Virus record (IMG/VR): IMGVR_UViG_3300022188_000047
Coordinates: 1-28,175 of that record
Length of the DNA: 28,175 bases
Reading direction: 5' to 3' (one strand)
DNA from: a virus
In this document: positions 3,630 through 25,402 of the stretch, piece after piece
Numbering within the stretch: position 1 is the stretch's first letter
Layout of the letters: each line of letters opens with the position of its first letter
Position numbers and translations under genes: made by a program
Notes under the pieces: generated by a model
What the model was told of the DNA's origin: nothing
What the model saw: the letters and a program-made list of their open reading frames with translations, nothing else
The model's database searches: none

Positions 3630-6467
3630 TTAAGGCAACTGAAATGAAAGTGAAATTATTGTCCCTTTCGCTGCGGTTGTTGAAATTGCATCACAATCTA
3701 ATCTTATTACATCATTAGTAGCAACATCATCATAACTTGTATTTATTACTGCTGGTGTCGCCGCAGTATTACTTCCTGTTTCTGTTGTATCAATAGTTAA
3801 TTTTGTGCTTAACATATCTTGACTATCTGTTAGATTATATAATTGCCAGTCTGTTGTGCCTGTTGTTCCAGCTGTAACAACTAATCCGTGAACACTTACT
3901 AAATTCATACCATTTAAACTCGCTGGAATATGAAAGTAGAATATTCCGTCTGCTGTTTCTGTGTCTGCGTCAAAAGCTATCGGTATTAATTCAATTGTTT
4001 TTCTACCGAATATAGATGAACCTGCTAATCCGTCTGGAGTTAATGTTCTATCTGTGTCTGTGCCTGTTGTTGTTTCTGCTGTTGTTGCAAGCTCTACAAT
4101 TCCGCTTGCCGTATCAGATGAGGCACTAACACTTAATGTGTCATCTGTAAGAACTACTGGTGCTGTTACTGCTAAATTAGTATTTGCTGAAATATCTACT
4201 GTTGTTAAATATGTTGAAGTATCTATACTTAATGCTCCTGTCCCTCCTGATGTCTTTACAAAGCCATTATCCGTTAGATTTGAGAGCGTAGTAATGTTTT
4301 GCGAAGTATCAACACTAAATGTTCCTGTTGTAAGTGTTAAGCCTGTGCCTGCCGTATATGTTGTGTCATTGTCAGTATATCCTACTGCCCAAGATTGTAA
4401 TTTTGCAAATGTGTCAATATCTGTATCTTGCATATATCCATTTACTGTTAAATCATCACTTACCTCATCATTTGCCCAAGGATTTATTGTATTAACCCAG
4501 TTTCCTGTAATAGTATCATTTTGAGCTAATTCAGCATAAACAGTCAGATCAGGCAAATCACTTAAATCATCATAACTTGTTGTTGTTTGTCCACTAAATT
4601 GAATATCCCACGGTATTTGAATTTCTGTAAAATTTGTATCATCTTTTTCAACAATAACTTTTGCTAATAACATTGAAAAAGAACTAACTAAATCTGGTAA
4701 GTTATCAGGAGAACCAAGAGCTTTTGCTTCTGCTAATGTATAACTTCCTATCCCATAAACTAAATAAAAATCTCCGTCAAAATCTCTATAAATATAATAA
4801 ACTCCATATTTATTTGGTGCTATTGTCGCAAGTCCTGTTCCATAATCATTATACTGAGTATTACTTATTGTTGTTTGTCCTGTTGTTTTTTGCCAAGCAC
4901 CGTCATTATACCAAGTAGTAAAAGTAATAGAAGATGAAGCCGTAGAAGTAAATCTTGTATTCCCGCGATAAAATACACCAGAAGTCATTGTTAGTCCTCT
5001 TGCTCCTATTTCTGATGTAATTAATCCACTTGCTCTTGCAAAGCTATATAATTCTTCTGCTCTTCTATGTGTTCTAAAAGCTAAATCTTGAATTTGCGCG
5101 CCACCAGATAATGTATGTATTTTAGTTCCGTCATTATAAGCCATACCTATAGCTACCTTAGTTCTTCCATTTATACTTGCTCTTGAAGTTGTTGTAGCGA
5201 AAATTGGACTTCCTCCATTATAATCAGCATAAACATAATTAATTTCATCTTGAGAAATCCCTAAGCTTGAATTTTCTGGCATATCAATACTAACATTATT
5301 ACCGATTGAACTATTAGTTGTTTTAATTATTCCATAACCAGCTAAAATTGTAATTGTCCCATCTCCATTATCCGATAATTCTCCTCCTGAATTTATTTTA
5401 CCTGCTGATTGTGTGACATTCCACCAATCCTCTGTGTTTGTGTAAGTTGCCCCTGCTATTATATTCATCTTAACCATTTCATCTTTTATTCCATAGTATG
5501 AACCTGTTATGCTTAAATCGCCGTTTACATCTAATTCGTATGCTGGGTTAGTTGTGCCGATGCCGACGTTGCCTGTTATTATTAAATTCCCATCTGTAGC
5601 CCCATCAAAACTTCCTGCTATTTTGAAAGTGTTAGCTGCACTTCTTGACAGAAAAATATCTCTGGTAGCATTTCCTGGACCAATTCCAATTTTTCCATCA
5701 GAGTAAAATACAGTTCTCCAAGAGCTTTCACCTGATGCAAAAATATTAAATGCACGACCTGTAGTAGCTGAGGTTGCTAAATCTGCAACGAGAGTTATTA
5801 CTCTGTCATTTCCTACAACCTCTAACTTGCTTTGTGGGTTAGTTGTGCCTATGCCAACATTGCCTGTGCTTAAAACAGTAATCGCAGAAGTAGCGGTTGC
5901 TTCGTTGCTTGCGTTGCCTACATAGATTTGAGTGTTTGGGAGAGCGGTCATTGAACCTGTATCTTCTTGCCAAGTTAATGTTCCGCTTCCATTTGTTTTT
6001 AAAGTATAACCATTCGTTCCATCAGAAGACGGGAAAGTATATTCTCCTACTTTTAATGTTCCATCAAAATAACTATTACCAACTACTTCAAAAATAGTGC
6101 CGTCAGAACTTGTTGCATTATTACCTATTACAAGAGGATAACCCTCTTGATTATAATAAATTGTCATTGGGGTGGTTGTTGACCAAATTGATGAACCACC
6201 GCCAGTGCCACTGCCTCCTGCTGGTGTATCAAAAGAATAAGTAAAAGGGCTATTGCCAGAAACTTTTAAATACTTGCCGACATCTCCTGCTGCTACTGTC
6301 CCTTGCCCTGTTCCACCCATATAAGGATAAATTAAACTTGCTCCTAATTCTTGTTCTTGTCCACTAAATAAATCTCTTAATTCATCAATAGATAACTGTA
6401 TAGCTTTGGCTGAAAATGGAATTAATGTTAATAAAATTCCATAGAGTAATAATTTTTTTATTTGCAT
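3630..6467 (-). CDS. Large tail-fibre/receptor-binding protein with signal peptide
   Basis: A 945-aa beta-rich protein. Residues 1-22 look like a Sec signal (KKLLLYGILLTLIPFSAKA), followed by YPYMGGTGQGT. Two fibre repeats, GNVGIGTTNPQSKLEV (about 202-217) and GNVGIGTTNPAYELDV (about 299-314), are typical of trimeric phage fibres and surface proteins. Further on are Thr/Ser-rich stretches and the tail-fibre motif ASGIVELATTAETTTGTDTD (about 780-805), then a C-terminal beta domain. Likely role: host recognition. The signal peptide is unusual for a cytoplasmically assembled fibre. Neighbours on both sides are also fibre- or adhesin-like. The product class is fairly secure; receptor and exact position in the virion are unknown. 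Confidence 0.75.
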   Translation of the reverse strand: MQIKKLLLYGILLTLIPFSAKAIQLSIDELRDLFSGQEQELGASLIYPYMGGTGQGTVAAGDVGKYLKVSGNSPFTYSFDTPAGGSGTGGGSSIWSTTTPMTIYYNQEGYPLVIGNNATSSDGTIFEVVGNSYFDGTLKVGEYTFPSSDGTNGYTLKTNGSGTLTWQEDTGSMTALPNTQIYVGNASNEATATSAITVLSTGNVGIGTTNPQSKLEVVGNDRVITLVADLATSATTGRAFNIFASGESSWRTVFYSDGKIGIGPGNATRDIFLSRSAANTFKIAGSFDGATDGNLIITGNVGIGTTNPAYELDVNGDLSITGSYYGIKDEMVKMNIIAGATYTNTEDWWNVTQSAGKINSGGELSDNGDGTITILAGYGIIKTTNSSIGNNVSIDMPENSSLGISQDEINYVYADYNGGSPIFATTTSRASINGRTKVAIGMAYNDGTKIHTLSGGAQIQDLAFRTHRRAEELYSFARASGLITSEIGARGLTMTSGVFYRGNTRFTSTASSSITFTTWYNDGAWQKTTGQTTISNTQYNDYGTGLATIAPNKYGVYYIYRDFDGDFYLVYGIGSYTLAEAKALGSPDNLPDLVSSFSMLLAKVIVEKDDTNFTEIQIPWDIQFSGQTTTSYDDLSDLPDLTVYAELAQNDTITGNWVNTINPWANDEVSDDLTVNGYMQDTDIDTFAKLQSWAVGYTDNDTTYTAGTGLTLTTGTFSVDTSQNITTLSNLTDNGFVKTSGGTGALSIDTSTYLTTVDISANTNLAVTAPVVLTDDTLSVSASSDTASGIVELATTAETTTGTDTDRTLTPDGLAGSSIFGRKTIELIPIAFDADTETADGIFYFHIPASLNGMNLVSVHGLVVTAGTTGTTDWQLYNLTDSQDMLSTKLTIDTTETGSNTAATPAVINTSYDDVATNDVIRLDCDAISTTAAKGTIISLSFQLP

Positions 6468-23275: not shown

Positions 23276-25402
23276 TTATCTTGCAGGATTTGTTTTTGCC
23301 TCCCTATGAAATATTGGGATTGTATCTAAAAAATCCTGTTTATTAATAATTGGTGCTAATGATATTATACCATAACGGATTGCATCCATACAATCACTTA
23401 AATAATGATCTGGTTCGTTCAAAACTTTTTCCTCTTTATCTGTCTTCCATAAATAATTTTTATATGCTTTTATAATGTTTATACTCCTTTTCGTCACACT
23501 AATTTTCTGTTCTTGAACCACTCCAATACTCCATTTAACATAAGTTTCTTTTGTGCCGAAATTTTCCTTTCTTTTTTTTGCTCCGATTATATTAATCCCA
23601 TAACTTCTAATTTCGGCTATACTTTTGGGTTCAGCACTATCAGCAATAGTTAAAGTATAAGGTAAATTCTTTAATATATCCGCTATTGGTTTATTTAGCA
23701 ATCCTTTCTGATAACATATTTCATCTATTATATATCCGCCATTATAATAATATATTGCTACAATAGCTGTAAAATCTACGCTATACCCAAAATCTAATCC
23801 ATATCGTTCTAATCGTGCCTCGTGCGGTATTTCATCAATAATTTTCCAGTTTTTATAAATTTTCCGCTCCATATTGTGCGGTTCGCCTAACCATTTATGC
23901 TTATATAATCCCGGTCTATTTTTTTTGTCATCTTCTATCTCTTTTAAAATAACATCAGGCATCATCCCATATTTTATTGCTATATCGTAATTGACATTAA
24001 TTATTAAAGTGTCGGGTCTTCCCTCTATTACCAATCTATTATGCACTGGGTCTTCTTCTAACAATCTATTATAGGTATATATTATTTTAGATTTTTCCTT
24101 TCTTACTGTTGGTGTTAAAACTTCTATACTTTTGGCACTGATTGACTGTGCCTCCTCACAATTATGAACTAATATTCCATTTGCAAAATAATTATTATTT
24201 ACTTCAACTTCAAGATTGTAGACATAATTTCCTTTATCACTAAGTCTGAGTTGTTCAATATCTCCTTGTTCCTGTATCTCAACACTGTCCACCCCAGTTT
24301 CTTTAATATCCGATTTTTCTTTTTGTCTTGTTCTCTCCCTATTAGTCCAGTATGAGAGCCACCATCGCATTCTACTGCTAACATATAATAAACATTTGCT
24401 AAATCTACCTTGTAATTTGTTGGAATACCCTTTTCTCTTCCTAGTTCTTTCGGCATAACAATCAATTCTCTCCACCAACCTCTCCCTAATTTCTTGTATA
24501 AAAATTGTTGTGCTTTTGTATAACCACGACCATTTCCACCTAAAACTTTTGGCTTGTGCCCAATTTTCTTTAATGTTTTCCCCATTTTTTCTCTTATCTC
24601 CTTGTTGTCCATTGGGTTGTTTATTTTCATTCTCTCCGATGCCCTTCTTTTCACACAATCCCAACAAAAAATTCCACCATTTTTTACATATTTTTGTCTT
24701 CTCCCGTGAGTGTTCATCTCTATTTCTTCTCCACAACCACCCAAACAGGGTGCTGTTTTTGGTAAATTTAATTTCTTCATAAACATTGTTTTTAATAGTT
24801 AGGTCTTTTAATGGAATATATCCACTTTCAGTAAAGACAGGATGTTCTCCTGTTCCTATTATATACCTGTCCCCATACAATGTCAATAATTTGTATAATT
24901 TTAAAGGTGCTTTTGTTTTAGAAATCTTTAACACTTTTCTATATTCAATTTTATTCAATTTATGATTATATGATTTTATGTAATCCCCAATCTTTATTTT
25001 TTCTATCGGCTTTTCATCAACAAGTGTGCCAGCAATGAAACACCAAGCTATGTCAATCCCCTCAATAGATTTAATACTTTGCTCATTATTCCATAATCCT
25101 TTAAATATAAAGTCCGAACCATTTATTTTATTAACTATTGAATTATTGGTTATATTAAAATCTGCTAAACCATATAAATTAATTAATTCTGATAATAATT
25201 GGTGTGAACTTTCTGCTATTGATGATTGAAATTCTCTAAAACACGCTACTCTCGTCTTTTTTTCTCTTGCTTTAATTAATAAATACCTTGCTACTGTATG
25301 AGATTTGAGCGAAAATCTTCCGCCAAAAATTGCCGCCTCTCGCCAATTATCATTGAATATGGGCTTATATTCAATCGGTATATTAATTATTTTATTTTTC
25401 AT
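23276..25402 (-). CDS. terL: Terminase large subunit containing an intein
   Basis: A 708-aa precursor; removal of the 294-residue intein leaves 414 aa, normal for PBSX/Terminase_3-type subunits. ATPase: Walker A-like GGRFSLKS (27-34), Walker B IDIAW|CEEAQ (split by the intein after residue 120), and coupling motif IIYTYNR (440-446). RNase H-like nuclease: LDFGYSVDFTA (D537), TIADSAEPKS (D588) and HYLSDCMDAIRYG (D670/D673), all three acid sites present. It packages DNA into the prohead through the portal, encoded downstream. It overlaps the small-subunit gene by 11 bases. Without splicing the Walker B would be destroyed, so splicing is needed for function. Confidence 0.9.
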   Translation of the reverse strand: MKNKIINIPIEYKPIFNDNWREAAIFGGRFSLKSHTVARYLLIKAREKKTRVACFREFQSSIAESSHQLLSELINLYGLADFNITNNSIVNKINGSDFIFKGLWNNEQSIKSIEGIDIAWCFIAGTLVDEKPIEKIKIGDYIKSYNHKLNKIEYRKVLKISKTKAPLKLYKLLTLYGDRYIIGTGEHPVFTESGYIPLKDLTIKNNVYEEIKFTKNSTLFGWLWRRNRDEHSREKTKICKKWWNFLLGLCEKKGIGENENKQPNGQQGDKRKNGENIKENWAQAKSFRWKWSWLYKSTTIFIQEIRERLVERIDCYAERTRKRKGYSNKLQGRFSKCLLYVSSRMRWWLSYWTNRERTRQKEKSDIKETGVDSVEIQEQGDIEQLRLSDKGNYVYNLEVEVNNNYFANGILVHNCEEAQSISAKSIEVLTPTVRKEKSKIIYTYNRLLEEDPVHNRLVIEGRPDTLIINVNYDIAIKYGMMPDVILKEIEDDKKNRPGLYKHKWLGEPHNMERKIYKNWKIIDEIPHEARLERYGLDFGYSVDFTAIVAIYYYNGGYIIDEICYQKGLLNKPIADILKNLPYTLTIADSAEPKSIAEIRSYGINIIGAKKRKENFGTKETYVKWSIGVVQEQKISVTKRSINIIKAYKNYLWKTDKEEKVLNEPDHYLSDCMDAIRYGIISLAPIINKQDFLDTIPIFHREAKTNPAR
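24161..25042 (-). mobile_element. Intein in the terminase Walker B site
   Basis: Precursor residues 121-414. Block A is CFIAGTLVDEKPIEKIKIGD with Cys1; block B is IGTGEHPVF with Thr and His; block F is YNLEVEVNNNYFANGILVHN ending in the His-Asn pair; and Cys is the +1 extein residue. All splicing residues of a class 1 intein are present, so it should be active. The segment between blocks B and F (about residues 210-390) has no LAGLIDADG or HNH motif in the terminase frame. It is the shadow of an endonuclease encoded in another frame. Insertion at a catalytic motif is usual for inteins. Confidence 0.93.
24199..24786 (-). CDS. EDxHD/Vsr-like homing endonuclease nested out of frame within the intein
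   Basis: A 195-aa frame, shifted +1 from the terminase and fully inside the intein. Order: a zinc knuckle (CLGGC at 14-18, CWDC at 41-44), a NUMOD3-like DNA-binding segment (RMKINNPMDNKEIREKMGKT, 52-71), then a PD-(D/E)XK/Vsr-like catalytic region with YKVDLAN, AVECDGGSH (E139, D141, H145), D154 and GWTVLRYRNKEIL, matching the EDxHD/DUF559 type. It starts at ATG 24786 or 24780, just after block B; no Shine-Dalgarno, but the upstream bases are A-rich as for other genes here. It ends within block F. It is presumably translated separately and would drive intein homing to terminase genes. Confidence 0.85.
   Translation of the reverse strand: MFMKKLNLPKTAPCLGGCGEEIEMNTHGRRQKYVKNGGIFCWDCVKRRASERMKINNPMDNKEIREKMGKTLKKIGHKPKVLGGNGRGYTKAQQFLYKKLGRGWWRELIVMPKELGREKGIPTNYKVDLANVYYMLAVECDGGSHTGLIGREQDKKKNRILKKLGWTVLRYRNKEILNNSDLVIKEIMSTILKLK

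Follow-up and report, generated by a model that had tools for sequence, protein, structure and literature searches.

A homing endonuclease gene predicted in the +1 reading frame of a continuous phage terminase intein, and the recurrence of this layout among relatives

The terminase gene and its intein

The DNA analysed here (hereafter the window) is a stretch of 28,175 nucleotides from the virus record IMGVR_UViG_3300022188_000047, and the locus in question is a 708-residue open reading frame (ORF) on its minus strand, encoding a phage terminase large subunit that is interrupted by an intein and overlapped, in the +1 frame, by a second ORF of 195 residues (Table 1). The terminase assignment stems from profile searches, in which the same product also matched Intein_splicing and TIGR01443 (intein C-terminus; 2.4e-7). 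The bounds of the intein were set by sequence, with the first Cys (C1) at 25042, the last Asn (N294) at 24161, a Cys as the +1 residue, and junctions that read ...GIDIAW/CFIAGTLV...FANGILVHN/CEEAQ...

The splicing signature is complete (the block A nucleophile C1, the block B TxxH, a His-Asn ending in blocks F/G, and Cys at +1), and the residues C1, T64, H67, V292, H293, and N294 are invariant in an alignment of 45 inteins. An AlphaFold2 model of the host-frame reading adopts a Hint fold, wherein residues 1-90 and 245-294 mostly exceed a predicted local distance difference test (pLDDT) score of 90 and the middle is mostly disordered with low scores; its top matches in the PDB are inteins and BIL domains (E ~3e-6), the best of them mini-inteins. 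The alignment behind this model (A4) excludes 11 loci without a delimitable intein, as well as those loci (e.g., L002, L014, L019, and L067) for which the automatic assignment of the intein start had fallen on an upstream Cys instead of the true C1. A preliminary description of this DNA had proposed intact splicing blocks and an endonuclease encoded in the +1 frame of a terminase intein whose own frame stays open, and both proposals stand: the terminase frame contains no stop across all 588 bases of 24199-24786, and each of the two overlapping products matches the expected profiles.

Table 1. Features of the intein-interrupted terminase gene in the window
Feature	Position	Strand	Basis
Terminase large subunit gene, intein-interrupted	23276..25402	-	Terminase_3 2.6e-25; phrog_3717 1.7e-43
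N-extein, ending ...SIEGIDIAW, Walker B region	25043..25402	-	Empty-site relatives read GIDIAWVEEAQ
Intein, 294 amino acids, C1-N294	24161..25042	-	Intein_splicing 4.3e-11; model resembles DnaB/RecA mini-inteins
N-terminal Hint part, blocks A and B, host frame only	24787..25042	-	C1, T64, H67 invariant in 45 inteins; pLDDT 93-98
Putative endonuclease start region: ATG 24784-24786 or ATG 24778-24780, A-rich leader TTAAAAACA, without Shine-Dalgarno motif	24778..24798	-	
+1-frame EDxHD/DUF559 endonuclease gene (predicted), 195 amino acids plus stop	24199..24786	-	DUF559 1.1e-13; model pLDDT 91.4
Endonuclease zinc motif, C15, C18, C41, C44	24655..24744	-	Conservation in 52 sequences
DUF559/Vsr-like nuclease domain with E139, D141, H145, D154	24214..24420	-	Profile, conservation, structure match
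Single-constraint overlap: frame kept open, amino acids no more conserved than the endonuclease frame imposes	24310..24786	-	Recoding tests; mostly low host-model pLDDT
Dual-coding zone, ~36 codons: endonuclease GWTVLRYRN-end and intein GVDSVEI...VYNLEV (C-terminal Hint strand, block F)	24199..24309	-	
Intein end, block G, ...FANGILVHN, host frame only	24161..24198	-	V292, H293, N294 invariant
C-extein, starting CEEAQ	23276..24160	-	Intein-free terminase relatives align over junction

The protein read in the +1 frame

Besides DUF559, the 195-residue protein matches MTES_1575 (6.2e-10) in profile searches, and profile comparison relates it to 3hrl, a solved endonuclease-like protein (E 4.6e-11), and to 3r3p (E 0.034). 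Its structural model, computed from an alignment of 52 sequences, finds its best PDB counterparts in the same two entries, 3hrl (template modelling score 0.80) and 3r3p, which is I-Bth0305I (0.74; both scores target-normalised, Foldseek probability 1.00), with Vsr as a weaker match. Sixteen residues are invariant in the 52 sequences, including E139, D141, H145, and D154 in catalytic order; in the zinc motif (CxxC...CxxC), C18 is invariant and C15, C41, and C44 are at least 90% conserved. By fold and catalytic residues, the protein would be a homing endonuclease of the EDxHD/Vsr-like class, with cleavage as its predicted activity. The make-up first proposed for it included a zinc motif and EDxHD catalytic residues together with a NUMOD3-like segment, for which no Pfam match was obtained at E values up to 1.

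Recurrence of the layout in relatives

The arrangement is not an isolated case, and the preliminary description can be amended in this respect: the window endonuclease belongs to a widespread family with the same out-of-frame layout. When phage records were searched with the endonuclease by tblastn, 40 genomes were matched, and in every one the match sits under a larger host gene; in NC_019457, OZ196825, NC_042354, MT104474, MW824411, and MG592563, it lies in the +1 frame of an annotated helicase or an unnamed coding sequence, the endonuclease itself being unannotated. The window endonuclease as a single query returned no matches from viral contigs, and an alignment of seven endonucleases as the query yielded 230 relatives in viral contigs (80 of which were kept) and 16 in genome contigs. 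Altogether, 103 loci (numbered with the prefix L) were collected by endonuclease sequence only, so that an open host frame was not selected for. In 90 of these, from phages and bacteria alike, the endonuclease occupies the +1 frame of a continuous ORF reaching at least 50 amino acids beyond it on both sides, and a +2 offset occurs in none of the 103. The 81 distinct loci used in several of the comparisons below are a subset picked for an open host frame, and the unselected figure remains 90 of 103.

The host genes encode P-loop NTPases: among the 77 scanned, 63 are ResIII-type helicases of superfamily 2 (SF2), five match Terminase_3, one is a DNA polymerase III subunit, and others make up the rest. 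The commonest insertion site, DE/CH, is the Walker B motif, and the terminase site, W/CEEA, is the equivalent position. The remainder of the 103 loci includes free-standing endonucleases (L098 and L100), one locus truncated by the contig end, with its host frame open (L066), one with a short host-frame remnant (L099), and two ordinary in-frame inteins with the same class of zinc-motif and EDxHD nuclease (L101, 1467-3482; L103, 3272-5404), whose hosts, named from the sequence by eye, are phage-head-like and archaeal radical-SAM-like, respectively.

Some side observations concern the same genes. At three loci (L088, 3818-4429; L049, 3355-3996; L082, 3890-4519), a free-standing endonuclease lies directly upstream of an SF2/SNF2-type helicase without an intein, which is likely its target gene. 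At the same helicase site, Vibrio phage 268E42.1 (L108, 301-2385) has an intein of ~150 amino acids that is of another sequence type and too short for an endonuclease. Among the N-terminal host parts (alignment A2), five match LAGLIDADG_3 and three match Hom_end, and for this reason a further intein, of the ordinary kind, may be present in some host genes in addition to the +1 type.

Selection on both reading frames

Substitution patterns and recoding tests jointly indicate that both reading frames are maintained by selection. In close pairs of loci, substitutions within the overlap fall mainly on the third codon positions of the endonuclease (5, 0, and 32 at positions 1, 2, and 3 for L007/L109; 4, 3, and 20 for L003/L006), and in the flanks of the overlap they peak at host third positions. 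The three larger close pairs show 6-8 endonuclease replacements where neutral simulations lead one to expect 19-31, and host-frame replacements in the overlap are at or above the neutral expectation. In the window, none of 500 synonymous recodings of the endonuclease under either of two null models kept the terminase frame open, and 14-17 host-frame stops are expected where none is observed. Over the 81 loci, the same procedure predicts 574-746 host-frame stops against an observed count of zero, and the third frame contains 1080; for each of the relatives outside an uninterrupted host frame, the corresponding frame is broken by 8-28 stops. Chance openness of the host frame was considered as an explanation and rejected, both by the recoding test and by the recurrence of the layout.

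What is conserved in the host frame differs along the overlap. A column-wise test found most host-frame residues conserved no more than recoding predicts; over the last ~36 codons, however, host-frame conservation lies well above that level (z down to -36, a value that is indicative only), and the same bases there encode the endonuclease from GWxVLRFxN to its C-terminus and the intein segment RVxSVEI...VYNLEV. The preliminary description had regarded the host-frame product of the overlap as an inert linker and had predicted purifying selection in the +1 frame with mere avoidance of stops in the terminase frame. This holds for most of the overlap and gives way in the last ~36 codons, which appear to be constrained in both frames. 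None of the three outcomes named beforehand as refuting that description was observed: the +1 frame has a strong profile match, a base-call error is excluded by 81 distinct loci with this layout, and relatives conserve the +1 product but, in most of the overlap, not that of the host frame.

Mobility and empty sites

The helicase of phage phi674 equals that of Corynebacterium phage phi673 minus exactly 906 base pairs (an intein of ~302 amino acids), removed in frame, and the exteins show 17 differences in 1605 base pairs (99% identical). Further empty sites were found in 142E35-1 and 141O35-1, and intein-free terminase relatives (L110-L115 and L118, up to 76% identical) read GIDIAWVEEAQ across the insertion point. 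In the pair L007/L109, the non-overlapping Hint part has a third-position divergence of 0.048, roughly ten-fold lower than that of the N-extein (0.49) and C-extein (0.475); the intein has therefore apparently moved recently. Taken together, these sequence comparisons point to a mobile intein and a recent transfer.

Proposed mechanism and alternatives

The most probable account, which we hold with high confidence, is that of a mobile self-splicing intein with a homing endonuclease gene overprinted in its +1 frame. The sequence itself shows that the host frame encodes a terminase precursor whose Hint splicing domain is complete, that the +1 frame, from an ATG just past block B, encodes the 195-residue nuclease with its zinc motif and EDxHD domain, and that both frames are maintained. 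In the cell, the Hint domain would excise both itself and the disordered, non-functional segment that results when the endonuclease gene is read in the host frame, thereby restoring the terminase, and internal translation initiation would release the endonuclease as a separate protein. This enzyme would cut intein-free copies of the same gene at its Walker B codons, and repair would copy the intein in. Because the enzyme would have its own start, its amount should not be tied one-to-one to splicing, unlike that of the nuclease in an ordinary in-frame intein.

The step from overlap to separate protein is where the strongest competitor arises, namely that programmed +1 ribosomal frameshifting yields the endonuclease fused to the N-extein and N-intein. 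The offset is +1 in every case, as such a mechanism would have it, and a Shine-Dalgarno motif is missing from the vicinity of the start in approximately half of the loci. There is almost no room for a frameshift, however, at 34 of the 81 loci, where the +1 frame opens 0-6 nucleotides before the first start codon; a subset of loci has GAGG/AGGAG 6-9 nucleotides ahead of the endonuclease start; and in the split relatives L039, L055, and L073 the genes are separate, the first of them ending in an overlap with the start of the endonuclease. Across loci, a Shine-Dalgarno motif precedes 46 of the 144 start codons located close to where the endonuclease begins, as compared with 121 of 1358 internal ones. 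From this enrichment and the scant room for a frameshift, we infer independent initiation, and hence endonuclease expression uncoupled from splicing; frameshifting appears unlikely.

A second alternative, in which the host frame is passive, the intein no longer splices, and openness is a by-product of composition, would explain why the middle of the product is disordered and lacks amino-acid conservation of its own. It is nevertheless very unlikely in view of the stop counts (none in the host frame, set against those of the third frame), the invariant catalytic splicing residues, the conservation of the C-terminal Hint strand beyond recoding, and the nature of the hosts, terminases and helicases, which phages presumably need. 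Still less credence can be given to the +1 ORF as a decayed or accidental frame left when a frameshift killed an ancestral in-frame endonuclease: in-frame EDxHD inteins do exist (L101 and L103), but the +1 frame is intact, under apparent purifying selection, and at the same offset in 81 distinct loci. Lastly, an assembly or base-call error that displaced an ordinary in-frame endonuclease, conceivable for a window that is one contig, can be set aside given the same +1 offset in 90 loci from many studies, isolated phage genomes included.

Several points weigh against the overprinted, mobile intein as the account of this locus. No Shine-Dalgarno motif precedes the endonuclease start in the window, and the leader there reaches only the 77th-86th percentile of non-start ATGs; initiation may consequently be weak. 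(Just 2 of the 26 listed minus-strand gene starts of the window phage have such a motif, and A-rich leaders are the rule, which hints that its host uses non-Shine-Dalgarno initiation.) The loci share ancestry, so that the counts and z values overstate significance. The +1 residue, moreover, is Val in intein-free phi674 (L104, DEVHH) and in the intein-free terminases (AWVEEA), as opposed to Cys in the genes with an intein; entry of the intein into such sites would therefore also need co-conversion of the flanking codon, and the difference suggests either co-conversion or a Cys requirement. Translation, splicing, and cleavage are themselves predicted steps.

The arrangement represents a large, recurrent same-strand overlap (~590 bases in the window) within a mobile element, with a sequence-based selection signal in both frames. 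An intein can thus harbour a nuclease whose translation would be separate from that of the splicing precursor, such that the regulation of homing could differ, and many EDxHD nucleases, whose targets are probably conserved Walker B codons, are added to those on record.

Split inteins and their possible origin

Three distinct loci on four contigs (L039, 3665-4453; L055/L058, with L055 at 3731-4495; and L073, 3701-4438) contain split inteins in SF2 helicases. In each, the first gene stops where the endonuclease begins in the +1 frame, and a second gene, for the C-intein and C-extein, begins inside the 3' end of the endonuclease gene. In a quick tree, the endonucleases of the split loci form a fully supported group nested among the overlapping ones, a placement that leaves the root and the direction of change unresolved. 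It is a tentative but serious possibility that the split inteins of fractured genes descend from continuous out-of-frame ones. Since the endonuclease is already equipped with a start of its own and extends over the C-terminal Hint half, splicing in cis would change to splicing in trans once the host frame gains a stop codon and the C-terminal half gains a start codon inside the endonuclease gene. If true, this would constitute a route by which split inteins, which serve as important biotechnology tools, arise in nature.

Comparison with known systems

Canonical full-length inteins, such as PI-SceI, have an in-frame homing endonuclease between blocks B and F. The window intein shares with these (PI-SceI as well as L101 and L103) the Hint blocks, the splicing signature, the position of the endonuclease between blocks B and F, and a homing biology; it differs in that endonuclease and splicing domain do not share one frame, the endonuclease being in the +1 frame, predicted to form a separate protein, and overlapping the C-terminal Hint strand.

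Dassa and colleagues reportedly described, in 2009, fractured genes in which split inteins are accompanied by free-standing EDxHD endonucleases. Common to these and to the present family is an endonuclease of the same fold class between intein halves, and L039, L055/L058, and L073, in which the intein is divided over two genes, fit this type, with a +1 offset. In 90 loci, by contrast, the window among them, the host frame is continuous, and the unsplit intein is predicted to splice in cis.

The EDxHD homing endonuclease I-Bth0305I (PDB 3r3p) has the same catalytic domain fold and the same ExD...H...D order, but is labelled 'mobile intron protein' in the PDB and is hence intron- rather than intein-associated.

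A literature search found, among the papers that could be read, none on a continuous intein with an out-of-frame endonuclease, and the one directly relevant result was the work on the ShiLan methylases; related arrangements may, however, be described in a preprint by Gosselin, Arsenault, and Gogarten (2025; 10.1101/2025.01.02.630785) on actinobacteriophage inteins of 'non-canonical architecture', which is cited in PMC11855218 with regard to overlapping reading frames. The ShiLan domain and other out-of-frame HNH insertions in phage methylases, which are without a splicing domain (PMC11855218; Applejack, PMC12613952), resemble the present family in having an out-of-frame endonuclease within an insert that keeps the host frame open, and they are described as actively homing. 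They differ in the HNH nuclease, the use of the third frame, the methylase host, and an insert that has no detected splicing domain and is thought to be retained in the protein, whereas the window combines a DUF559/EDxHD nuclease with a Hint domain.
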